A DNA stretch of 36,781 nt, taken from the NCBI RefSeq assembly GCF_004403515.1, contig NZ_SOHH01000038.1:1-36781 (forward strand). Direction: 5' to 3'. This document shows, one piece after another, positions 1,812-15,072 of the stretch. A model generated the notes under the pieces. That model ran no database searches. It was not told the DNA's origin and saw only the letters and a list, made by a program, of their open reading frames with translations. Each line of letters starts with the position of its first letter. Within the stretch, counting starts at the first letter, position 1. Both the position numbers and the translations under genes were made by a program. This stretch comes from Cryobacterium fucosi (GTDB lineage Bacteria > Actinomycetota > Actinomycetes > Actinomycetales > Microbacteriaceae).

Positions 1812-4343
1812 CTACAGCCGGTTGACCTCGGTGACCCGCAGCACGGCGGCGCCGAGTTCGTCGGAGGCGGCCAGGTCGACCGTCGCGCTGATGCCCCAGT
1901 CGTGGTCGCCGGCCGGGTCGTCGAAGATCTGCCTGGCGGTCCAGACGGTGGCGCCCTCGTCGAGGATCAGCAGGCCGGCCCCGCGGGCATTCGGTCCGGC
2001 GAGCAGCTCCTCGTGCTCGGCGAAGTAGCCGTCCATGGCGTCGGCCCAGGCATCCGCGGTGAAGCCGTGTTCGCGGTCGAGTTCGCCGAGCTCGTCGTAG
2101 TGCTCGAGCGCCGCCAACTGCACCCGGCGGAAGAGTTCGTTGCGCACGAGGATGCGGAAGGCCCGGGTGTTCGTCGTCAGGCGGCGCGGAGCGGGCGGCA
2201 GCACGGAATGGGCTCCGGCCTCGTGCGCGGCGAGGTCGGGGTGGATGAGCTCCTCCCACTCGTCGAGCAGGCTGGAGTCCACCTGGCGCACGAGTTCGCC
2301 CAGCCACTCGATCAGGTCGAGCAGGTCCTCGGTCTTCGCCTCGTCCGGGATGGTCTGCCTGGCCGCCCGGTAGGCGTCCGACAGGTAGCGCAGCACGACG
2401 CCCTCACTGCGGGCGAGCTTGTAGAAGGCGATGAACTCGCCGAACGACATGGCCCGCTCGTACATGTCACGCACGACCGTCTTCGGGCGCAGCTCGAAGT
2501 CCGCGATCCACGGCTGCGATTCCCTGTACGTCTCGAACGTGTAGGTGAGCAGTTCCTCGAGCGGCTTGGGCCAGGTGATCTCCTCGAGCAACGCCATCCG
2601 CTCGTCGTATTCGATGCCCTCCCGCTTCATCGCGTTCACGGCCTCGCCGCGGGCGGCGAACTGCTGGCCCATCAGCACCGGGCGCGGGTCGTCGAGGGTG
2701 GCCTCGACGACCGAGATCATGTCCAGGGCGTAGTTGCCGGTGCCCGTTCCGGCCGCCGGGTCAGGGTCGAGCAGGTCGAACGCGGCGAGCGCGAACGGCG
2801 ACAGGGGCTGGTTGAGGGCGAAGTTCGGCTGCAGGTCGACGGTCAGGCGAATGCGGGGCCGGTGGTCGGGCGTGTCGGGACCCTGTTCCACGATCCCCGC
2901 CGCGCGCAGCGTCTTGTAGATCCCCAGCGCCCGCCGGGCGTGCGCGAGCTGGCGCTTCCACGGCTCGTGGTTGTCGAAGACCAGCGAGTGGACGTGGGCG
3001 TACGCGTCGCCGCCGCGCCCGATCACGTTGATCAGCATCGCCGCGGTCATCTGCATGCTCGACTGCATGGTTTCCGGCTCGGCCGCGACGAGGCGCTGGA
3101 ACGACGGCTCGCCCCAGGACACGAATCCCTCCGGCGCCTTCTTGCGGATGATCTTGCGCTTCTTCTTCGGGTCGTCGCCGGCCTTCAGGATCGCCTTGAG
3201 GTTGTCGGTCTCGTGGTCGGGCGCCTGCACCGCGACCGTCCCGGCGGTGTCGAAGCCGGCCCGGCCGGCCCGGCCGGCGATCTGGTGGAATTCGCGGGCG
3301 TTGAGCTGGCGCATCTTCACGCCGTCGTACTTGGTGAGCGCCGTGAACAGCACGGTGCGGATCGGCACGTTGATGCCCACGCCGAGCGTGTCGGTGCCGC
3401 AGATGACCCGGAGGAGGCCTTGCTGGGCGAGCTGCTCGACCAGCCGGCGGTACTTGGGCAGCATCCCGGCGTGGTGCACGCCGATGCCCATCCGGATCAG
3501 CCGGGACAGAGTCTTGCCGAAGCTGGTGGTGAAGCGGAACTCGCCGATCAGCTCGGCGATCGCCTCCTTCTGCTCCTTGCTGGCCACCTTCACGCTGCTC
3601 AGCGCCTGCGCGCGTTCCAGGGCGGCGGCCTGTGCGAAGTGCACGATGTAGACCGGCGCCTGCCCGGTCTTCAGCAGGTCCTCCACGGTCTCGTGCACCG
3701 GCGTGGTCTCGTAGAAGTAGTGCAGCGGCACGGGCCGTTCCACGCCGGTGACGACCGCGGTGGGCCGGCCGGTGCGCCGGGTCAGGTCGTCGGCAATGAA
3801 GGTGACGTCGCCCAGGGTCGCCGACATCAGGATGAACTGCACCCGCGGCAGCAGGAGCAGGGGCACCTGCCAGGCCCAGCCGCGGTCGGGGTCGCCGTAG
3901 AAGTGGAATTCGTCCATCACGACCTGGTCGACCTGCGTGTCCTCGCCGCTGCGCAGGGCCAGGTTGGCGAGGATCTCCGCCGTGCAGCAGATGATCGGGG
4001 CGTCGGAGTTCACAGAGGAATCGCCGGTCATCATGCCCACGTTCTCGGCGCCGAAGATGTCGACGAGCGCGAAGAACTTCTCGCTGACGAGCGCCTTGAT
4101 CGGGGCGGTGTAGAAGGTGCGCCGGCCGGCGGACAGGGCGGCGAAGTGCGCGCCGACCGCCACCAGGGACTTGCCCGTGCCGGTGGGCGTGGACAGAATG
4201 AGATTCGCCCCGGACACGATCTCGATCACGGCCTCTTCCTGGGCGGGGTAGAGCGCCAGGCCCTGCTCCCCGGCCCAGAGTTCGAACGCCTCGAACAGGA
4301 TGTCCGGGTCGGTGACGTGCGGGAGCGCGGTGAGAGTAGCCAT
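1812..4343 (-). CDS. Ski2-like DEAD/DEAH-box helicase (DUF3516 type)
   Basis: An 843-residue superfamily-2 helicase. Walker A is TPTGTGKS (52-59), motif II is DEFH (144-147), motif III is SAT (174-176), and motif VI appears as IAGRAGRAGF. The order and spacing match Ski2/Mtr4-like RNA helicases. The long C-terminal half resembles the actinobacterial DUF3516 extension, making a helicase widely kept in Actinobacteria and usually annotated only as DEAD/DEAH box helicase. Expected activity is ATP-driven unwinding of RNA, or of RNA/DNA duplexes, in the cytoplasm; the physiological substrate is unknown. The ATG at 4343 has AGGA about 9 nt upstream. It lies 60 nt downstream of the GH81 stop on the same strand and could receive read-through from the glycan operon. 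Confidence 0.9.
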   Translation of the reverse strand: MATLTALPHVTDPDILFEAFELWAGEQGLALYPAQEEAVIEIVSGANLILSTPTGTGKSLVAVGAHFAALSAGRRTFYTAPIKALVSEKFFALVDIFGAENVGMMTGDSSVNSDAPIICCTAEILANLALRSGEDTQVDQVVMDEFHFYGDPDRGWAWQVPLLLLPRVQFILMSATLGDVTFIADDLTRRTGRPTAVVTGVERPVPLHYFYETTPVHETVEDLLKTGQAPVYIVHFAQAAALERAQALSSVKVASKEQKEAIAELIGEFRFTTSFGKTLSRLIRMGIGVHHAGMLPKYRRLVEQLAQQGLLRVICGTDTLGVGINVPIRTVLFTALTKYDGVKMRQLNAREFHQIAGRAGRAGFDTAGTVAVQAPDHETDNLKAILKAGDDPKKKRKIIRKKAPEGFVSWGEPSFQRLVAAEPETMQSSMQMTAAMLINVIGRGGDAYAHVHSLVFDNHEPWKRQLAHARRALGIYKTLRAAGIVEQGPDTPDHRPRIRLTVDLQPNFALNQPLSPFALAAFDLLDPDPAAGTGTGNYALDMISVVEATLDDPRPVLMGQQFAARGEAVNAMKREGIEYDERMALLEEITWPKPLEELLTYTFETYRESQPWIADFELRPKTVVRDMYERAMSFGEFIAFYKLARSEGVVLRYLSDAYRAARQTIPDEAKTEDLLDLIEWLGELVRQVDSSLLDEWEELIHPDLAAHEAGAHSVLPPAPRRLTTNTRAFRILVRNELFRRVQLAALEHYDELGELDREHGFTADAWADAMDGYFAEHEELLAGPNARGAGLLILDEGATVWTARQIFDDPAGDHDWGISATVDLAASDELGAAVLRVTEVNRL

Positions 4344-4403: not shown

Positions 4404-6464
4404 TCAGCCGCGGCTGTAGAGCCAGGCGAGCAGGTACGCGCGGCTGTTGCCGTCGTCGATGCGGTCGGCCGGCAGCGCCGCGACGGCGGCCAGCGCGGCG
4501 GCGGCCTCCTCCGCCCCGGCGAGCGCCGAGTACATCAGCAGGTAGTCGCCGAAGAGAACGTCGAACCCGTTCGGAGCCGCGTCGGCGAGGTTGGCGCGCA
4601 CCCGGTCCGGGTCGCCGCCGAGGTAGCCGGCGACCGGGCTCATCGGCAGCACGAGGATGCCGAGCATGGCGCTCGGCTCAGGGCTGAACCAGGTCGCGTA
4701 GTCGCGCTTGCCGCCCCAGACCAGCGAGGTGACCGGGTGCCCGAACCCGGCGTAGACGGGATCGTCCCGCGGGAAATCGGTCCAGTAGGCGCGGGCGGAT
4801 GCCGCCTCGGCCGACAGCAGCCAGGTCGCCTCGGTGCGCAGCCCGGCCTGTCCGCTCGCCGCGGCCCAGAGGGCGAGGCCGTTCCAGGCCGTCACCGCCT
4901 CCGAACTGGACTCCTGGTTGTTGCCGTCGCCGAACGGGGCGGTGCCGCTGGCCCAGGAGTGGCCGGCGTAGGCGTCGAACACCCGGCGTTCGGGGAACCA
5001 GTCGCTCGGCCCGCTCGTGGCGAGGTCGGCGGCGAGCAGGTTGAGCACGGGCGCCCACCGGGCGGCGAGCTGCGGGTCGTCCGCGGCGGCGACCCCGGCC
5101 GCGTAGAGGAAGTAGCCGTAGTGGAAGTGGTGGTCGTTGAACGAGTCGGACCCGAACGACGCGGCCAGGCCGACCAGGCCACGTGCGGCCGGGTCGTACA
5201 CGAAGCAGCGGGTGCTTCGGACCGAGCATCCGGTCGGCTCCAGCCACCGGCTGAGCTCGTCGACCAGGCGCTTCCGGATCGTCTCCGCCGCCTGGTCGGC
5301 GCCGACCTGGTCGGCGACGCGGAGCAGGTTCGCCGCCCGGTACAGCGCCTTGCCGCCGAAGTAGGTGTCCTCGGGGAACGCGCCGGTGCCGTCGACATCC
5401 GCCCCGACCTGCGCGGCCAGCCGTTCCGTCGCGGCGGCGGCCAGCCCGGACAGGTCGAGCGAGCCGGCCGCGTCCCGCCGGGGCACCGACCAGGTCAGGG
5501 CCGTCCCGGCGCACAGCACCAGCTCGCCGTAGACGCTCGGGTAGCTGCCGAGCGAGCACTCGCTGCCGGCCTCGCGATCCGACTGGTGCGGCATCGCCGC
5601 GACGAGGGTCTGGCCGCCGTCCACGGTACGGTATCGCAGGCTGGTCGTCGCCCGGTCGGCGGTCACCGAGTAGTCCAGGCTCGTTCCCACGAGCGGATGC
5701 CGGGCCGCCTCGGCGAATCGGTCCGGCGACCCTCCCCGGGCGATCGCGTACCAGGTGGCGGTCTGCCCGGCCCGAAGCGAGAGCGTCGTTCCGCTCTCGT
5801 CCAGGGTGCCCGCGCCGGCCAGGCCGTACCGGGTGCCGGCGACCTCGGCCGTCCAGGGTCCGCCGCTCGCGCCGACGTCGTCCGTTGCGATCATCGCGGC
5901 GCCCAGGCGCACGTCGACATCCCGGGTGGCGGTGAAACTCACGAACGGGGATCCCTCGGCGATCACGGTGCGGCCGATCTCGCCGTCGTCACCCCGCTGC
6001 GAGATGGTGACCGAGGCAGCGTCATAGCCGGTGACGACCTGCCGGCGGGCGCCGACATCCGCCGTGACCGCCGCGGTGAAGCCGCCCATGATCGCCTTCG
6101 GCGTGGTCGTCACCGTGGGCACCCCGAACGCGAACCCGCCCCCGGTCAGCTGGAACGACAGCGGCAACGGGAAGACCGGCATCGACACCTCCCCGAAGAC
6201 CAGGCCGGAGAACCACCGGTTCGTCGGCGGGATCAGGCCCTCCGCCAGCCGCGCCGCCGGCAGGGCCGCGACGGTGCGTTCCGGCATCCCCGCGACCAGC
6301 GGGGCGATCGTGTCACCCGCGAAAATGTCGCCTCCCCCACTGGCGGAGGCGTCCCCGGTCGCCGCCTGCCTCGCGCCGGCCGCCGAACACCCGGAGAGGA
6401 CCAGCAGCACGAGCGCGAGGCCCGCGGCGAGCCGCCCGACGGCACCCGGCCGATGCGCCGCCAC
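4404..6464 (-). CDS. GH81-like endo-beta-1,3-glucanase lipoprotein
   Basis: A 686-residue exported protein. The N-terminus has a short basic segment, a Leu/Ala hydrophobic core and a lipobox LSGC with Cys26, so it should be lipid-anchored on the outer face of the membrane. The body shows family GH81 signatures: PPTNRWFSGL near the start, then NDHHFHYGYF (about residues 439-448) and GHSWASGTAPFGDGNNQESS followed by SEAVTAWNG (about 500-530), where the acidic catalytic residues of GH81 lie. Known GH81 enzymes cleave beta-1,3-glucan internally. The GTG start at 6464 shares one base with the TAG stop of the HlyD-like gene, giving a TAGTG junction that suggests translational coupling. It is the last gene of the GT2-HlyD-GH81 operon, so trimming or releasing the operon's own product is more likely than foraging (inference). 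Confidence 0.85.
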   Translation of the reverse strand: MAAHRPGAVGRLAAGLALVLLVLSGCSAAGARQAATGDASASGGGDIFAGDTIAPLVAGMPERTVAALPAARLAEGLIPPTNRWFSGLVFGEVSMPVFPLPLSFQLTGGGFAFGVPTVTTTPKAIMGGFTAAVTADVGARRQVVTGYDAASVTISQRGDDGEIGRTVIAEGSPFVSFTATRDVDVRLGAAMIATDDVGASGGPWTAEVAGTRYGLAGAGTLDESGTTLSLRAGQTATWYAIARGGSPDRFAEAARHPLVGTSLDYSVTADRATTSLRYRTVDGGQTLVAAMPHQSDREAGSECSLGSYPSVYGELVLCAGTALTWSVPRRDAAGSLDLSGLAAAATERLAAQVGADVDGTGAFPEDTYFGGKALYRAANLLRVADQVGADQAAETIRKRLVDELSRWLEPTGCSVRSTRCFVYDPAARGLVGLAASFGSDSFNDHHFHYGYFLYAAGVAAADDPQLAARWAPVLNLLAADLATSGPSDWFPERRVFDAYAGHSWASGTAPFGDGNNQESSSEAVTAWNGLALWAAASGQAGLRTEATWLLSAEAASARAYWTDFPRDDPVYAGFGHPVTSLVWGGKRDYATWFSPEPSAMLGILVLPMSPVAGYLGGDPDRVRANLADAAPNGFDVLFGDYLLMYSALAGAEEAAAALAAVAALPADRIDDGNSRAYLLAWLYSRG

Positions 6465-7195
6465 TACAGCCCGATCTTCCGGAGGAAGTCGCTCACGCCG
6501 TCGCCCAGACCGGCGAGCACGCCGTCGTCGCGGAGCATGATCGTGGCGGTGACCGGGGTGCCCCGGGCGACCAGACCGTTGTTGTCGCCGTCGACCAGCT
6601 GGTCGCTGGCCACCCGCACGGTCGTCTCGGCCCTGCCGTCGGCGGTCTGCACCTCGATCGACTCGATCCGCCCGCTGACCTGCCGCTGGTTGGGCAACAG
6701 GATGTCGACGGTGGCACCGTCTTCGACCCTGGCATAGTCCCGCGGGGGCAGCGCATAGTCGGCCGAGACGAACAGCGACCCGGCCCGGTCGATCGTAGCG
6801 AGCACCTGGCCGGCCTGCACGAACGACCCGCGCTCGGTGGTGAGGTCCGAGATTGTGCCGTCGACCGAGGCCTTGAGCGTGATGATGCCGTCGTCGGCCA
6901 CGCTGTACGCGACCGTGTCCGGCTTGATCAGTCCCTCGGCGAGGTCGGCCTGGAGTGAGGAGCTCTGCAGGGAGAAGAGGTCCTGGCCGGCGTGGACCCG
7001 GTTTCCGGCGTCGACGAACCGGTCGACCACCGTTCCGCCGTAGTCGATCCCGACGGGGTAGCGTTCGGCCTGGATCGATGCCGAGGTGCTCGCCACCTGG
7101 GCCTGCCGCTGGTTGAACACGATCGTGAGACCGGCCACCAGGACGAGCACGGCCGCAAGCCCGGCCAGGAGCCTGAACCGGTTGCGCCAGGTCAT
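6464..7195 (-). CDS. HlyD/Alg44-like membrane-anchored adaptor
   Basis: A 243-residue protein with one N-terminal transmembrane helix (about residues 8-25, LLAGLAAVLVLVAGLTIVF), so the rest lies outside the membrane. Two lipoyl-like half-motifs are visible: YGGTVVDRFVDAGNRVHAGQ, then DGIITLKASVDGTISDL continuing to FVQAGQVLATID. Only about 40 residues separate them, too few for the long coiled-coil hairpin of true efflux adaptors. A beta-barrel-like region follows. This compact form resembles the periplasmic part of Alg44-like proteins that accompany polysaccharide synthases. Its ATG overlaps the TGA of the GT2 gene by 4 nt (ATGA), and its stop overlaps the GH81 start by 1 nt. A role guiding or stabilising nascent glycan outside the synthase is inferred from context. 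Confidence 0.8.
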   Translation of the reverse strand: MTWRNRFRLLAGLAAVLVLVAGLTIVFNQRQAQVASTSASIQAERYPVGIDYGGTVVDRFVDAGNRVHAGQDLFSLQSSSLQADLAEGLIKPDTVAYSVADDGIITLKASVDGTISDLTTERGSFVQAGQVLATIDRAGSLFVSADYALPPRDYARVEDGATVDILLPNQRQVSGRIESIEVQTADGRAETTVRVASDQLVDGDNNGLVARGTPVTATIMLRDDGVLAGLGDGVSDFLRKIGL

Positions 7196-8913
7196 GAGGC
7201 GACCGCGATTCCGCGGCCCGGACGGTCGTGTCCCGGCACCCGCACGCCCCGTGCCTCGGCCCGGGCGAGGCGCCCGGCCGAACGCCGGGCGAGCCGCTGC
7301 CCGCTCGCCTCCCGCAGCGCCACCACGACGAAGACGCCGAGGATGACCGTGTTGGTGACATTCCAGGCGGTCGCGAGGGTGGGCGCGCCGTTGCCCAGGT
7401 CGCGCCAGACCGCGACCATCGAGGTCAGGGAGAGGAAGACGAAGAACAGCACCTGCGGGACCATGAAGTTGAACGGCGAGCTCGCCGCCGTGCGATTCCC
7501 GGTGGCGTGCCAGTGCTGTTCCTTGCCCACGATCACATTGCCCAGCGCGGCCAGGTAGATCGGGAAGGAGATGGTCGCCAGCATCAGCGTCTCCCAGCGG
7601 AACGAGCCCATCGTGTAGAAGGCGAGCACGATCTGCAGCAGGTAGAACCCGGCGTAGTAGACCAGCCAGGTGACGACCGTGGTGGAGAGGTTCATCGGGC
7701 GCAGGTCGAAGTAGATCTCCAGCGGCGGCACCAGGAGCAGCAGGAGCGGGCAGATCCCGGTCAGGTAGAAGGATGCCGTGACCAGGTATTGCAGCCGCTG
7801 GTCCAGGGTCAGTCGCCGGCGGGGGCTCAGCGGGTTGTGCCGGAGGAGAATCTCGAAGCCGCCGGTCGCCCAGCGGAGCTGCTGTTTGGTGTACGCCTCG
7901 ACCGTCTCCGGTGCCTGCCCGATCGCGAGGGAGAGCGGGATGTAGATCGTGCGCCAGCCGCGCTCGTGCAGCATGAGCGACGTCCAGACGTCCTCGGACT
8001 TCGAGTCGGTGTAGATGCCGCCGACCTCGTCCACGGCGCTGCGGCGGAAGATCACGTTCGTGCCGACACAGAACGCGGCGTTGAAGCGATTGCGCCCGGG
8101 CTGGATGAACCGGTAGAAGACGGCCTGCATGTAGCCCGCACCACGGGCGATCACGGTGTGCAGGTTTCCATAGGTCTGCGGGGTCTGCACGAACGCGACG
8201 TTCGCGTCGGCGAAAAACGGCACGGTCTCGACCAGGAATGCGGGGTCCGGCACGAAGTCGGCGTCGAAGATGACGAAGAAGTCGCTCCGGGTCAGGCTCA
8301 GGGCATGGTTGACGTTGCCGGCCTTGGCACCGCCGTTGCCGAGGCGGCGCAGGTAGCGCGCGCCGAGTTCGACGGCCACGCTCCGCACGGCATCCGAATC
8401 ACCGTCGTCGAGCACCCAGGTGGTGTGCTCGCCCCGAATATTGCGGGCGGCGGCGACGGTGCGGCGGATGACGTCCGGGTCTTCCCCGTACGTGGTGATG
8501 AACACGTCCACGGACACCCGGGAGTTGGCCAGGTGCAGCGGCCAGTGCTCCGGTGACGAGCTCCACCCGTCCCTGGCGATCTCGCGCGAGTGGAACAGGG
8601 CCGTTTTGGCCTGGTGGAACGCGAAGTCGCGAGGGTCCTGGGAGCCGGAGAGGATCGTCCACATCGACAGCAATGCCTGGCCGATCAGGATCGACTCCGC
8701 GAGGATGACCATCGAGTACGGCAACCAGTCGCCGCGGCTGGCCGGGTTCAGGAGGAAGTTCGCGTAGGCCAGGATTCCGAGCGTCGCGACCAGCACGAGC
8801 ATCACCAGCGACGGCGATTGCGCCTTCGTGGCCTCGGCGGGGCGGGGCGCCGGCTCCGGCTCGATCTCCAGCGGCGGAACGAGGATTTGGGGTCGCACAT
8901 GAAGGGTAGTCAT
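7192..8913 (-). CDS. Processive family-2 glycosyltransferase (beta-glucan synthase-like)
   Basis: A 573-residue polytopic GT2 enzyme with the full processive set: VLDDG (D169/D170), FDAD (217-219), SED as the acceptor-base motif (306-308) and QQLRW (344-348). FCVGTN (281-286) corresponds to the acceptor-side motif of cellulose synthase-like enzymes. Two helices precede the catalytic domain (about 36-55 and 67-88) and about five follow (about 377-400, 411-435, 441-463, 481-503, 517-533). That is the topology of BcsA and CrdS, which couple polymerisation from a UDP-sugar to transport across the membrane. There is no C-terminal PilZ domain, so direct c-di-GMP control through a BcsA-like PilZ is not expected. 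The tail is Arg-rich. It is the first gene of an operon ending in a GH81-like glucanase, which makes beta-1,3-glucan or a related polymer the favoured product (inference). The ATG at 8913 has AAAGAG upstream. Confidence 0.88.
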   Translation of the reverse strand: MTTLHVRPQILVPPLEIEPEPAPRPAEATKAQSPSLVMLVLVATLGILAYANFLLNPASRGDWLPYSMVILAESILIGQALLSMWTILSGSQDPRDFAFHQAKTALFHSREIARDGWSSSPEHWPLHLANSRVSVDVFITTYGEDPDVIRRTVAAARNIRGEHTTWVLDDGDSDAVRSVAVELGARYLRRLGNGGAKAGNVNHALSLTRSDFFVIFDADFVPDPAFLVETVPFFADANVAFVQTPQTYGNLHTVIARGAGYMQAVFYRFIQPGRNRFNAAFCVGTNVIFRRSAVDEVGGIYTDSKSEDVWTSLMLHERGWRTIYIPLSLAIGQAPETVEAYTKQQLRWATGGFEILLRHNPLSPRRRLTLDQRLQYLVTASFYLTGICPLLLLLVPPLEIYFDLRPMNLSTTVVTWLVYYAGFYLLQIVLAFYTMGSFRWETLMLATISFPIYLAALGNVIVGKEQHWHATGNRTAASSPFNFMVPQVLFFVFLSLTSMVAVWRDLGNGAPTLATAWNVTNTVILGVFVVVALREASGQRLARRSAGRLARAEARGVRVPGHDRPGRGIAVAS

Positions 8914-11362: not shown

Positions 11363-13342
11363 CTACACCTCGTCGGCGACCGGCGCCGCGAACTGGGCGT
11401 TGTGAAGCGCGTGGTAGGCGCCATTCGCCGCGAGCAGCTCCTCGTGCGTGCCCAGCTCCACGATCCGGCCGGCCTCCATCACGAGGATGAGGTCGGCGTC
11501 GCGGATCGTGGAAAGACGGTGCGCGATCACGAAGCTGGTGCGGTCGGCGCGCAGTGCGCTCATGGCCTTCTGCACGAGCACCTCGGTGCGGGTGTCGACG
11601 GAACTGGTCGCCTCGTCCAGGATGAGCACACTGGGCCTGGCCAGGAAGGCGCGAGCGATGGTGAGCAGCTGCTTCTCGCCGGCGCTGACGTTTCCGCCCT
11701 CGTCGTCGAGCACCGTGTCGTAGCCGTCCGGCAGCGAGTGCACGAACCGGTCGACGTAGGTCGCCCGCGCGGCGGCCTGGATGTCCTCCTCCGAGGCATC
11801 CGGACGCCCGTAGGCGATGTTCTCCCGGATGGTGCCGCCGAACAGCCAGGTGTCCTGCAGCACCATGCCCATCCGGCCGCGCAGGTCGTCGCGGGTCATC
11901 CTGGCCACGTCGACGCCGTCGAGGGTGATCCGGCCGGAGTCCAGCTCGTAGAAGCGCATCATCAGGTTGACCAGGGTGGTCTTGCCCGCGCCGGTCGGCC
12001 CGACGATCGCGACCGTCTGGCCTGGCTCCGCGATCAGGCTGATCTGCTCGATCAGCGGCTGGTCGGCGGCGTAGCGGAACGAGACGTCCTCGAAGGCGAG
12101 GCGGCCGTGCACGGTGGGCGGGGTCTCGGCCGGTTCCGGGTCGGGGCTCTGCTCCTCGGCGTCGAGCAGGTCGAAGACGCGCTCGGCGGATGCGACGCCG
12201 GACTGGAGCAGGTTGGCCATCGAGCCGAGCTGGGCCAGCGGCTGGGTGAACTGCCGGGAGTACTGGATGAACGCCTGCACATCGCCGAGCTGCATCGCGC
12301 CGGACGCCACCTGCAGCCCGCCGACCACGGCGATGCCGACGTAGACAAGGTTGCCGATGAACGTCATCGCCGGCATGATCATGCCGCTGATGAACTGGGC
12401 GCCGAAGCTGGCCTGGTAGAGCTCCTCGTTCTTGGCCGCGAAACGCTGCTCGACCTCCCTCTGGCGCCCGAAGACCTTGACCAGGGCGTGGCCGGTGAAC
12501 GTCTCCTCGATCTGGCCGTTCAACTCGCCCGTGTTCTTCCACTGGCCCACGAAGAGCTTCTGCGAGCGCTTGGCGATCAGCATCGTGGTCACCAGGGTGA
12601 GCGGCACCGTGACCAGGGCGATCACGGCGAGCAGCGGCGAGAGAAGGAACATCATCACGATGACGCCGATCACGGTCAACAGCGAGGTGACGATCTGGCT
12701 GAGCGACTGCTGCAGGCTCTGCGACACGTTGTCGACGTCGTTGGTGACCCGGCTGAGCAGCTCGCCCCGCTGCACGGTGTCGAAGTAGCGCAGCGGCAGG
12801 CGGTTGATCTTCGCCTCGATCTCGTCGCGCAGGCGGAACACTGTGCGCTGCACGACCCCGTTGAGCACGAAGGCCTGGATCCAGCTGAATGCGGAGGACA
12901 GCACGTAGAGGATCATCGCCCAGAGCAGCACGGTGGACAGCGCGGCGAAGTCGATGCCGAGCCCCGGCGTGAGGGTCATCCCGCTGAGCATGTCCGCCCG
13001 GGTGGTATCCCCGCTCGCCCGCAGCCCGGCGATGACCTCGGTCTGGCTGGCTCCGGCCGGAAGCGCCTTCGAGACGATGCCGGAGAAGATGAGGTTCGTG
13101 CCCTGGCCGAGCAGGCGCGGGCCGATCACCGAGAAGGTGACACTGACCACGGCGAGGACCAGCACGAGCAGGAGCCAGAGCCGTTCGGGCCTGAGCGTGC
13201 CGATCAGCCTCCTGGCTGACGGGCCGAAGTTCATGGCCTTCTCGGCGGGGGCGCTCATTCCGCCGAACGGGCCGTGCCCGCCACCGGGTCCCCGCGCCGG
13301 CGGCCGGTCCGCCGCGGGCCGCTCCCTGATTGCCCCGCTCAT
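11363..13342 (-). CDS. Heterodimeric ABC exporter, half with the active Walker B
   Basis: A 659-residue fused membrane and ATPase subunit. An ~40-residue Gly/Pro-rich cytoplasmic extension precedes a six-helix exporter domain. The ATPase domain has Walker A GPTGAGKTT (448-456), Walker B LILDEATSSVD with catalytic Glu577, and switch His608 in IAHRLST. Its signature motif is degenerate, VSAGEKQ (552-558), instead of LSGGQ. It overlaps its upstream partner by 4 nt (ATGA). In heterodimeric exporters of the TM287/288, BmrCD and LmrCD type, this subunit supplies the Walker A/B of the active site and pairs with the partner's intact signature. Substrates of the family are drugs, lipids or peptides; the one here is unknown. 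Confidence 0.92.
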   Translation of the reverse strand: MSGAIRERPAADRPPARGPGGGHGPFGGMSAPAEKAMNFGPSARRLIGTLRPERLWLLLVLVLAVVSVTFSVIGPRLLGQGTNLIFSGIVSKALPAGASQTEVIAGLRASGDTTRADMLSGMTLTPGLGIDFAALSTVLLWAMILYVLSSAFSWIQAFVLNGVVQRTVFRLRDEIEAKINRLPLRYFDTVQRGELLSRVTNDVDNVSQSLQQSLSQIVTSLLTVIGVIVMMFLLSPLLAVIALVTVPLTLVTTMLIAKRSQKLFVGQWKNTGELNGQIEETFTGHALVKVFGRQREVEQRFAAKNEELYQASFGAQFISGMIMPAMTFIGNLVYVGIAVVGGLQVASGAMQLGDVQAFIQYSRQFTQPLAQLGSMANLLQSGVASAERVFDLLDAEEQSPDPEPAETPPTVHGRLAFEDVSFRYAADQPLIEQISLIAEPGQTVAIVGPTGAGKTTLVNLMMRFYELDSGRITLDGVDVARMTRDDLRGRMGMVLQDTWLFGGTIRENIAYGRPDASEEDIQAAARATYVDRFVHSLPDGYDTVLDDEGGNVSAGEKQLLTIARAFLARPSVLILDEATSSVDTRTEVLVQKAMSALRADRTSFVIAHRLSTIRDADLILVMEAGRIVELGTHEELLAANGAYHALHNAQFAAPVADEV

Positions 13343-15072
13343 GCCGCTTCCTCCGCCGTCAGCTGTGACGACACGATTTCCTGGTAGGTCTCACTGCTCT
13401 CGAGCAGCTCGTGGTGGGTGCCCGCGCCGACGATGCGGCCGTCTTCGAGGACGAGGATCTGGTCGGCGTCGACGATGGTCGACACCCGCTGAGCCACGAT
13501 GATCATCGTCGCCCCGTCGGTGCCGGTCTTGAGGGCGGCCCGCAGCCGGGCATCCGTGGCTAGGTCGAGCGAAGAGAACGAGTCGTCGAAGATGTAGATC
13601 TCGGGGCGCTTCACCAGGGCGCGCGCGATCGCGAGCCGCTGTCGCTGGCCGCCCGACACGTTGGTGCCGCCCTGGGCGATCGGGGAGTCGAGTCCCTCGG
13701 GCATCTCCGAGACGAAGTCCCTGGCCTGGGCGATGGTGAGCGCCCGCCAGAGTTCCTCCTCCGTGGCATCCGGCTTGCCGTACTGCAGATTGCTGCGCAC
13801 GGTGCCGGAGAACAGGTAGGGCTTCTGCGGCACGAGGCCGATCTGCCCCCAGAGCAGGTCGGGGTTCAGCTCGCGCACGTCGACCCCGTCGACGAGCACC
13901 CCGCCGCTCGTTGCGTCGAAGAGCCGGGGCAACAGGTTGACCAGGGTGGTCTTGCCGGAGCCGGTGCTGCCGATGATCGCGGTGGTCTGGCCGGAGCGGG
14001 CCAGGAAGCTCACATTGCTGAGCACCGGCTGCTCGGCGCCCGGGTAGGCGAAGCCCACGTCGAGCAATTCGAGCTCACCGTGGCCGACGGTCGTGTTCAC
14101 CGGGTTGGCCGGCGGCACCACGCTCGAGGCTGTGCCGAGCACCTCGCCGATCCGGTCGGCCGAGACGGTCGCGCGCGGGATCATCACGGCCATGAAGGTG
14201 GCCATCATCACGGCCATCAGGATCTGCATGAGGTAGGAGAGGAAGGCGATCAGGGTGCCGACCTGCATCGAGCCGTCCTGGATCCGGAACGCCCCGAACC
14301 AGATCACGGCCACGCTGGAGACGTTGAGCACGAGCATCACGATCGGGAACATCAGGGCCATCAGCCGGCCGGCGCGCAGCGCGTAGTCGGTGACGTCCTC
14401 GTTGGCCGCGGCGAAGCGGGTCTGCTCACGGTCCTCGCGCACGAACGCGCGGATGACCCGGATGCCGGTGAGCTGTTCGCGCAGCACCCGATTGATCGTG
14501 TCGATCTTCTCCTGCATCACCCGGAACAGCGGCACCATCCGCACGATGATCAGGCCGACGGCGACGAGCAGCACCGGCACGCTCACCGCGATCAGCCAGG
14601 ACAGTTCCAGGTCCTGGCGAATGGCCATGATCACGCCGCCGATGGAGAGGATCGGCGCGGAGACCATCAGGGTGGAGGTCATCAGCACGAGCATCTGCAC
14701 CTGCTGCACGTCGTTGGTGGAGCGGGTGATCAGTGATGGGGCGCCGAAGCGGGTGACCTCCTGCTCGGAGAACACGCCGACCCGCGAGAAGACCGCGCCG
14801 CGCAGGTCACGCCCGAACGCCATGGCCGCCTTCGCGCCGAAGTAGACCGCGATGACCGAGCAGACGATCTGCGCGAAGGTGATCAGCAGCATCATCCCGC
14901 CGACGCGGAGGATGTAGCCGGTGTCGCCCCTGGCGACGCCCTCGTCGATGATGTCCGCGTTGAGGGTGGGCAGGTAGAGCGACGCGATCGACTGCGCCAG
15001 CTGGAAGACGACGACCGCCGCCAGAAGGCGCCGGTAGGGCCGCAGGTAGTGCACGAGCAGTTTCCACAACAA
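13339..15072 (-). CDS. Heterodimeric ABC exporter, half with the degenerate Walker B
   Basis: A 577-residue exporter half-transporter with six membrane helices followed by an ATPase domain. Walker A is GSTGSGKTT (368-376) and the signature VSGGQRQR (472-479) is intact. Walker B reads IYIFDDSFSSLD, so Asp497 replaces the catalytic Glu, and Gln528 (IIVAQRVST) replaces the switch His. These are the usual marks of the non-hydrolysing site in a heterodimeric exporter and complement the neighbour at 11363-13342. Translation probably starts at TTG 15072: AGGAGA (15084-15079) lies 7 nt upstream and overlaps the stop codon of the TetR gene, which suggests coupling. A second TTG directly follows. Confidence 0.92.
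   Translation of the reverse strand: MLWKLLVHYLRPYRRLLAAVVVFQLAQSIASLYLPTLNADIIDEGVARGDTGYILRVGGMMLLITFAQIVCSVIAVYFGAKAAMAFGRDLRGAVFSRVGVFSEQEVTRFGAPSLITRSTNDVQQVQMLVLMTSTLMVSAPILSIGGVIMAIRQDLELSWLIAVSVPVLLVAVGLIIVRMVPLFRVMQEKIDTINRVLREQLTGIRVIRAFVREDREQTRFAAANEDVTDYALRAGRLMALMFPIVMLVLNVSSVAVIWFGAFRIQDGSMQVGTLIAFLSYLMQILMAVMMATFMAVMIPRATVSADRIGEVLGTASSVVPPANPVNTTVGHGELELLDVGFAYPGAEQPVLSNVSFLARSGQTTAIIGSTGSGKTTLVNLLPRLFDATSGGVLVDGVDVRELNPDLLWGQIGLVPQKPYLFSGTVRSNLQYGKPDATEEELWRALTIAQARDFVSEMPEGLDSPIAQGGTNVSGGQRQRLAIARALVKRPEIYIFDDSFSSLDLATDARLRAALKTGTDGATMIIVAQRVSTIVDADQILVLEDGRIVGAGTHHELLESSETYQEIVSSQLTAEEAA

Follow-up and report, generated by a model that had tools for sequence, protein, structure and literature searches.

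A conserved GT2–HlyD–GH81 gene unit in actinobacteria as a candidate beta-1,3-glucan synthesis operon

The stretch of DNA analysed here (36,781 nucleotides from Cryobacterium fucosi, contig NZ_SOHH01000038.1, positions 1 to 36,781 of the forward strand; referred to as the window) codes on its minus strand for three consecutive open reading frames (ORFs). These are a processive family-2 glycosyltransferase of the BcsA superfamily (GT2), an HlyD-type membrane-fusion adaptor and a GH81 beta-1,3-glucanase-like lipoprotein, in this order. The GT2-HlyD-GH81 unit was confirmed to be a real, conserved module. It probably serves the synthase-dependent production of a beta-1,3-glucan of the curdlan type in actinobacteria, which have one membrane, with a dedicated, tethered GH81 as glucanase. 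This interpretation draws on computed evidence, namely the order and overlaps of the genes, predicted folds, active-site motifs, tethering signals and joint inheritance. Papers are cited below by their PubMed Central (PMC) identifiers.

Gene layout and conservation of the module

The GT2 gene (7192–8913, 573 residues) overlaps the adaptor gene (6464–7195, 243 residues) by 4 nucleotides (7192–7195), the stop of the former coinciding with the start of the latter. The TAG of the adaptor gene and the GTG start of the GH81 gene (4404–6464, 686 residues) have base 6464 in common, which makes a 1-nucleotide overlap. Both overlaps had been reported in an earlier note on this DNA, and both are borne out by the ORF coordinates and the sequence. 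The genome contains one such GT2 and one GH81.

A scan of named genomes yielded 551 relatives, of which the best 80 were kept; all counts of named loci refer to this set. The HlyD gene lies 3' of the GT2 gene in all 80 loci and is followed by GH81 in 78, with constant order and strand. This neighborhood survey, of a kind that the earlier note had proposed, found the unit across actinobacterial genera, including Cryobacterium, Curtobacterium, Frigoribacterium, Cellulomonas, Cellulosimicrobium, Sanguibacter, Isoptericola, Oerskovia, Demequina and Microlunatus. In one of the two loci without GH81 (L073), the contig ends 43 nucleotides past HlyD; the other (L083) is considered further below. The GT2–HlyD overlap is exactly 4 nucleotides in 76 of 82 loci, and the spacing between HlyD and GH81 ranges from -5 to 152 nucleotides in 75 of 80. 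In four of the five loci outside this range the GH81 start was placed by the script inside HlyD or upstream of it. The fifth is L102 (Demequina sp. NBRC 110055), in which the GT2–HlyD pair is tandemly duplicated 5' of a single GH81.

The nearest relatives of the window GT2 (90 and 92% identity) both come from Cryobacterium. Within the window's family, 199 genomes were sampled, and the GT2 (E 1e-60 or better) was found in 24. These genomes contain 26 GT2 loci, with HlyD present in all 26 and GH81 in 25; in the exception (L014) the fetched stretch was short, and GH81 is located just beyond it (G110:C1:37162-38178). At the genus level, the GT2 occurs in 14 of 57 genomes of the window's genus, and a match is present in 53 of 81 Cellulomonas-genus genomes (51 strong, 2 weak). 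One of the strong matches (G637:C1:360118-361688) consists of two overlapping frames and represents either a disrupted gene or an error in the sequence. In a class-wide draw of 394 genomes, strong GT2 matches (E 4.8e-252 or better) were found in eight genomes from five families, the next matches being 3.6e-95 and weaker; HlyD and GH81 were present in six of six further class members. For nine of the 19 weaker matches, fetched with wider flanks as outgroup loci, tblastn detected close relatives of HlyD or GH81 in none. This search excludes close relatives only, as it also missed the HlyD-type partners of the crd and bgs references that are recognized by Pfam. A fourth conserved gene was considered and rejected: when ORFs of at least 110 residues around 81 loci were clustered, the largest cluster covered at most 30 loci and was mixed in position and strand.

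Properties of the hydrolase, synthase and adaptor

GH81 is a family acting on beta-1,3-glucan. The window hydrolase matches the Pfam model Glyco_hydro81C (1.7e-53; 182.5 bits against a cut-off of 25.6), while the N-terminal GH81 model gives only 0.22; phmmer aligns residues 75–649 to a solved GH81 structure (6fop, 2e-60). The hydrolase therefore falls within GH81, as the earlier note had supposed. Three residues, which we take to be catalytic, are invariant in 45 aligned GH81 sequences: D444 in the motif NDHHFHYGY (5112–5138), and E518 and E522 in the motif NNQESSSEA (4896–4922). All 45 operon GH81s scanned match GH81C and contain no other module save one weak porin match. Thirteen GH81s located outside such operons (free GH81s) were collected; of seven that were scanned, five carry CBM6, F5/8C or Fn3 modules, some of the ORFs being cut by the fetched stretch.

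A lipobox had already been recognized in the earlier note; in the window sequence it reads LSGC (residues 23–26; 6387–6398). Over the whole set, 75 of 81 operon GH81s have a tethering signal, either a lipobox (57, or 58 by a looser rule) or an N-terminal hydrophobic stretch (18, of which 17 are from Cellulomonas). The start is uncertain in the remaining six, one of which has a hydrophobic stretch upstream. That tethering is kept while its form changes fits a role at the synthase exit.

The association of GH81 with the GT2 is also seen in gene co-occurrence. In the family sample, GH81 was found in 31 genomes, comprising all 24 with the GT2 and seven of the 175 without it (Fisher 4.7e-25, with neither kinship nor the linkage itself corrected for). 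The GH81 tree, which is unrooted and has SH-like approximate likelihood ratio test (SH-aLRT) support only, comprises 23 of the 81 operon enzymes and the 13 free ones. It has a split (support 100) between the 23 operon enzymes plus one free copy (L202) and the other 12 free enzymes. L202 (G084:C1:16000-21500) is 57% identical to the window GH81 and lies outside both GT2 operons of its genome. Two further peculiarities were observed. In four Cellulomonas loci (L059, L062, L076 and L080), another GH81 match, in the same orientation, lies downstream of the operon, at positions up to ~16.1 kb. In Naasia aerilata (L087, ~11456-13475) the GH81 match is in three pieces and the called protein has 517 residues, perhaps as a result of a frameshift.

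The window GT2 matches five GT2/cellulose-synthase families of Pfam (best 2.1e-27, weakest 4e-11). It has the motifs DDG, DADF, QTPQ, SED (residues 306–308; 7990–7998), which is conserved without exception in the 83 family rows aligned, and QQLRW (QxxRW; residues 344–348; 7870–7884). PilZ, the sole c-di-GMP-binding region sought, was not matched by Pfam in the window GT2 or, at E <= 0.01, in 56 family members. These results agree with the original description of a processive GT2 that has D, DxD, ED and QxxRW motifs and lacks PilZ. The equivalog model of UDP-forming cellulose synthase, TIGR03030 (CelA), was not reached (241.5 bits against a cut-off of 699.1). In structure searches, where the absence of a family from the match list does not exclude that family, the predicted structure fits BcsA best (34.5 over 478), above hyaluronan and chitin synthases, and has a BcsA-like channel fold. 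BLAST gave 199 bits for BcsA, 169 for a CrdS-like protein, 78 for PgaC and 68 for NodC. On the basis of the BLAST scores and the structural fit we rejected the identification of the GT2 as a hyaluronan, chitin or poly-N-acetylglucosamine (PNAG) synthase. Clustering with these enzymes and a hydrolase outside GH81 are two of the three outcomes that the earlier note had named as contradicting its proposal, and neither was observed.

Phylogenetic trees (IQ-TREE) included 22 chosen family members (the window GT2, 17 of the 82 loci, L108, L112, L113 and L114). NodC and PgaC, both on long branches, were set as the outgroup, and therefore the trees alone are no test of kinship with them. In a tree of 54 rows, which omitted L144, the 22 family GT2s form one clade (100/100), separate from that of the CrdS-like, BgsA, BgsA-like and BcsA references (100/99). 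The group nearest to the family clade (77/94) consists of other actinobacterial GT2s and one cyanobacterial GT2. The corresponding support is 98/98 in a second tree, from which the long rows L129 and L123 and one DUF3131 glycosyltransferase were also removed and to which three GT2s of a second type, described below, were added. Since both trees place the family outside, we rejected its membership in the CrdS-like, BgsA or BcsA clade. Alignment A3 contains 56 of 72 qualifying sequences, and alignment A4 contains 45 of 76 references. The CrdS reference was judged CrdS-like from its gene order and from the crdA start; it is distinct from the characterized CrdS.

At three motifs (DADF, FCVGT and SED) the window GT2 is identical to the CrdS-like references. 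The BgsA and BgsA-like rows have DADF in common, but have FCCGS or FCCGT, and TED; the BcsA motifs are DADH or DCDH, FFCGS and TED. CrdS has been described as lacking two BcsA contacts, His249–Ser320 and Tyr410–His351 (PMC6821405). At the positions of His249 and Ser320, corresponding to DADF and FCVGT by our numbering, the family is CrdS-like (Phe and Thr).

The adaptor matches Pfam HlyD_3 (1.3e-14). Its predicted structure has an N-terminal membrane helix, a split lipoyl domain and a beta-barrel; the model has no alpha-hairpin, the sole element between the lipoyl halves being helix 79–86. Both Pfam and the model accord with the single-pass protein with two lipoyl-like halves that had been described from the sequence. 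Its initial label, HlyD/Alg44-like, is justified as to the HlyD type, but the fit to Alg44 is loose, as both PilZ and the alpha-hairpin are missing. The alpha-hairpin is usual in membrane-fusion proteins, although not universal, as exemplified by BesA of Borrelia. BesA, an efflux pump component, is a membrane-fusion protein like the adaptor, whereas the adaptor is paired with a candidate glucan synthase.

The product of the operon and alternative explanations

According to the favored interpretation, the GT2 would polymerize UDP-glucose at the inner face of the membrane and export the chain through a transmembrane channel of its own. The hairpin-less HlyD-like protein, anchored beside the GT2, would either stabilize the synthase or take over the chain on the outer side. 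Fixed to the membrane through a lipid or a signal anchor, the GH81 would cut beta-1,3 bonds at the exit; the cleavage might release or trim chains, and might later reclaim the polymer as carbon. We infer the beta-1,3 linkage of the product from two observations only, the GH81 itself and the presence of the operon in Cellulomonas flavigena.

C. flavigena is a curdlan producer, and how it reutilizes curdlan has been called unclear (PMC3544764). The same paper (2013) lists two GT2s per species with 35–39% identity to the Agrobacterium curdlan synthase, tagged Cfla_3154 and Cfla_2615 in C. flavigena, and Celf_3456 and Celf_3585 in Cellulomonas fimi. In its available portion GH81 is mentioned only among beta-glucan-degrading enzymes, and the operon is not mentioned. 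We found the whole operon both in the genome taken as C. flavigena and in the genome taken as C. fimi. Two GT2 genes are present in each, at 3.505 and 2.926 Mb (C. flavigena) and at 3.862 and 4.010 Mb (C. fimi). These positions match those of the tags by interpolation, and thus the operon GT2 is probably Cfla_3154/Celf_3456. Curdlan of C. flavigena vanishes on nitrogen-rich medium without carbohydrate (PMC10819609), a loss that would be explained by a tethered GH81 made together with the synthase. In its native state this curdlan is not stained by aniline blue until it has been extracted (PMC10819609).

A more far-reaching proposal, which we advance tentatively and rate at somewhat below an even chance, is that the operon is the missing Gram-positive curdlan system. 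It would comprise the coat synthase of C. flavigena and a dedicated, tethered GH81 recycling the coat into carbon. This uncharacterized system would be common to several actinobacterial families, would have arisen apart from CrdS, and would use a hairpin-less adaptor suited to a single membrane.

Several observations weigh against a curdlan-type product. The operon GT2 falls outside the CrdS-like clade. At the position of BcsA His351 the family keeps a BcsA-like His and is not CrdS-like, and the motif agreement with the CrdS-like references was noticed after the fact and involves few positions. Overall, the residue likeness to CrdS is mixed and suggestive only. In L083, GH81 went undetected in the ~550 nucleotides between HlyD and the contig end, even with six closer queries. 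The most direct conflict concerns Cellulomonas gelida, which is reported to make no curdlan exopolysaccharide (PMC3035266) and yet has the full operon (L098). The second GT2, present in C. flavigena and C. fimi, is absent from C. gelida at E <= 1e-15. Three explanations come into question: silence of the operon in C. gelida, a different product in that species, or curdlan synthesis by the second GT2. The literature is divided on this point, since other Cellulomonas are stated to make small amounts of curdlan (PMC3544764). The operon for a curdlan-like polymer proposed in the earlier note is supported by a BcsA-superfamily synthase, an HlyD partner, a GH81 with active-site motifs and their conservation, but is called into question by the tree position of the GT2 and by C. 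gelida.

The leading alternative, although an unlikely one, is that the operon makes some other beta-glucan (e.g. with mixed 1,3/1,4 linkages) and that Cellulomonas curdlan is produced by the second GT2 (~2.926 Mb in C. flavigena). The distribution of this second GT2 among the three Cellulomonas species is in line with such a division. So are its neighbors in C. flavigena, an anti-sigma-type HATPase_c_2 protein and a SpoIIE/MASE1/PAS protein, and the synthesis of mixed-linkage glucan by HlyD–GT2 pairs in rhizobia (PMC9495663). In the tree the second GT2 joins a DUF3131-neighbor type, outside the operon GT2 family. In the genome taken as C. flavigena (L210:9177-13897) it is cellulose-synthase-like, with an insert between QTPQ and TED, and similar sequences occur in L211 and L144. 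However, its motifs (DADQ, FFCGS and TED) make it BcsA-like at FFCGS and TED, where the operon GT2 is CrdS-like (FCVGT and SED). Moreover, it is the operon GT2 to which GH81, a beta-1,3-glucan family, is tied in nearly all named loci, and the small curdlan amounts in other Cellulomonas argue against relying on the C. gelida report.

It is improbable that the GH81 serves in scavenging or in attack on fungi and is merely co-transcribed with an unrelated polysaccharide synthase. GH81s of Frigoribacterium have been discussed as degradative or antifungal (PMC12823222), and a GH81 was detected in the secretome of C. fimi (PMC4780727). As this species has two GH81 genes, the secreted enzyme is not assignable to either. 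A scavenging role is at odds with the near-constant linkage to the GT2, the mostly separate GH81 group in the tree, the lack of binding modules and the tethering signals. Finally, a non-glucan product, for instance a chain resembling hyaluronan, chitin or PNAG, is highly improbable in view of the better and longer fit to BcsA, the low PgaC and NodC scores and the lack of a consistently conserved fourth gene.

Comparison with known systems and implications

The operon combines the genes characteristic of synthase-dependent exopolysaccharide systems: a processive GT2, a co-encoded membrane accessory protein and a glycoside hydrolase. The crdASC curdlan operon of Agrobacterium likewise has three genes, including a GT2 and a protein matching HlyD (HlyD_3 5.7e-05 in the reference). 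Our reference was the crd-like operon of pAspH13-3a; the primers of PMC4327974 match this H13-3 operon well only at the start of crdA (2 mismatches of 18) and poorly elsewhere. The crd-like and window GT2s share FCVGT and SED but belong to different clades, the HlyD-type partner has 484 residues compared with 243 here, and the third gene is CrdC-like there and GH81 here. No consistently conserved gene that might be a CrdC counterpart was found around the 81 loci, no search aimed at CrdC having been made. The CrdC-like protein itself (L135:7704-8984) has no Pfam match and bears a weak similarity to an endo-beta-1,2-glucanase of solved structure (E 0.003), so that CrdC may be a glucanase-fold protein.

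The bgsBA genes for mixed-linkage beta-glucan in rhizobia also code for an HlyD-type partner (412 residues) and a PilZ-less GT2. In contrast to the present operon, bgsBA is a pair without GH81, HlyD comes first, and the GT2 is of another clade. BgsA binds c-di-GMP through a region at its C-terminus. The bcs cellulose system has PilZ on the synthase and a GH8, whereas here PilZ is absent and the hydrolase is GH81. The clostridial ccsZABHI unit likewise occurs in a one-membrane host and joins a GT2 with a dedicated hydrolase, but features GH5, a CBM11-like CcsB and acetylation genes in place of an HlyD-type protein and GH81 (PMC7710045). We found no description of the GT2–HlyD–GH81 operon in open-licence PMC full text.

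Curdlan production by C. flavigena was known already. The GH81 of the three-gene unit is a candidate for the missing curdlan-reuse step in this species. If the beta-1,3-glucan interpretation is correct, synthesis, anchoring and recycling of the polymer become testable in one three-gene unit, and a glucan coat is predicted in Cryobacterium, Curtobacterium, Frigoribacterium, Demequina and Microlunatus, among other operon-bearing genera. Some GH81 annotations would then shift from fungus attack to coat metabolism.

As for the surroundings of the operon in the window, a divergent ORF, named by eye as oxidoreductase-like, is located upstream of the GT2 gene. Downstream of GH81, on the same strand, is an ORF (1812-4343) that appears by eye to be helicase-like; its relatives adjoin the operon in nine of 81 loci.

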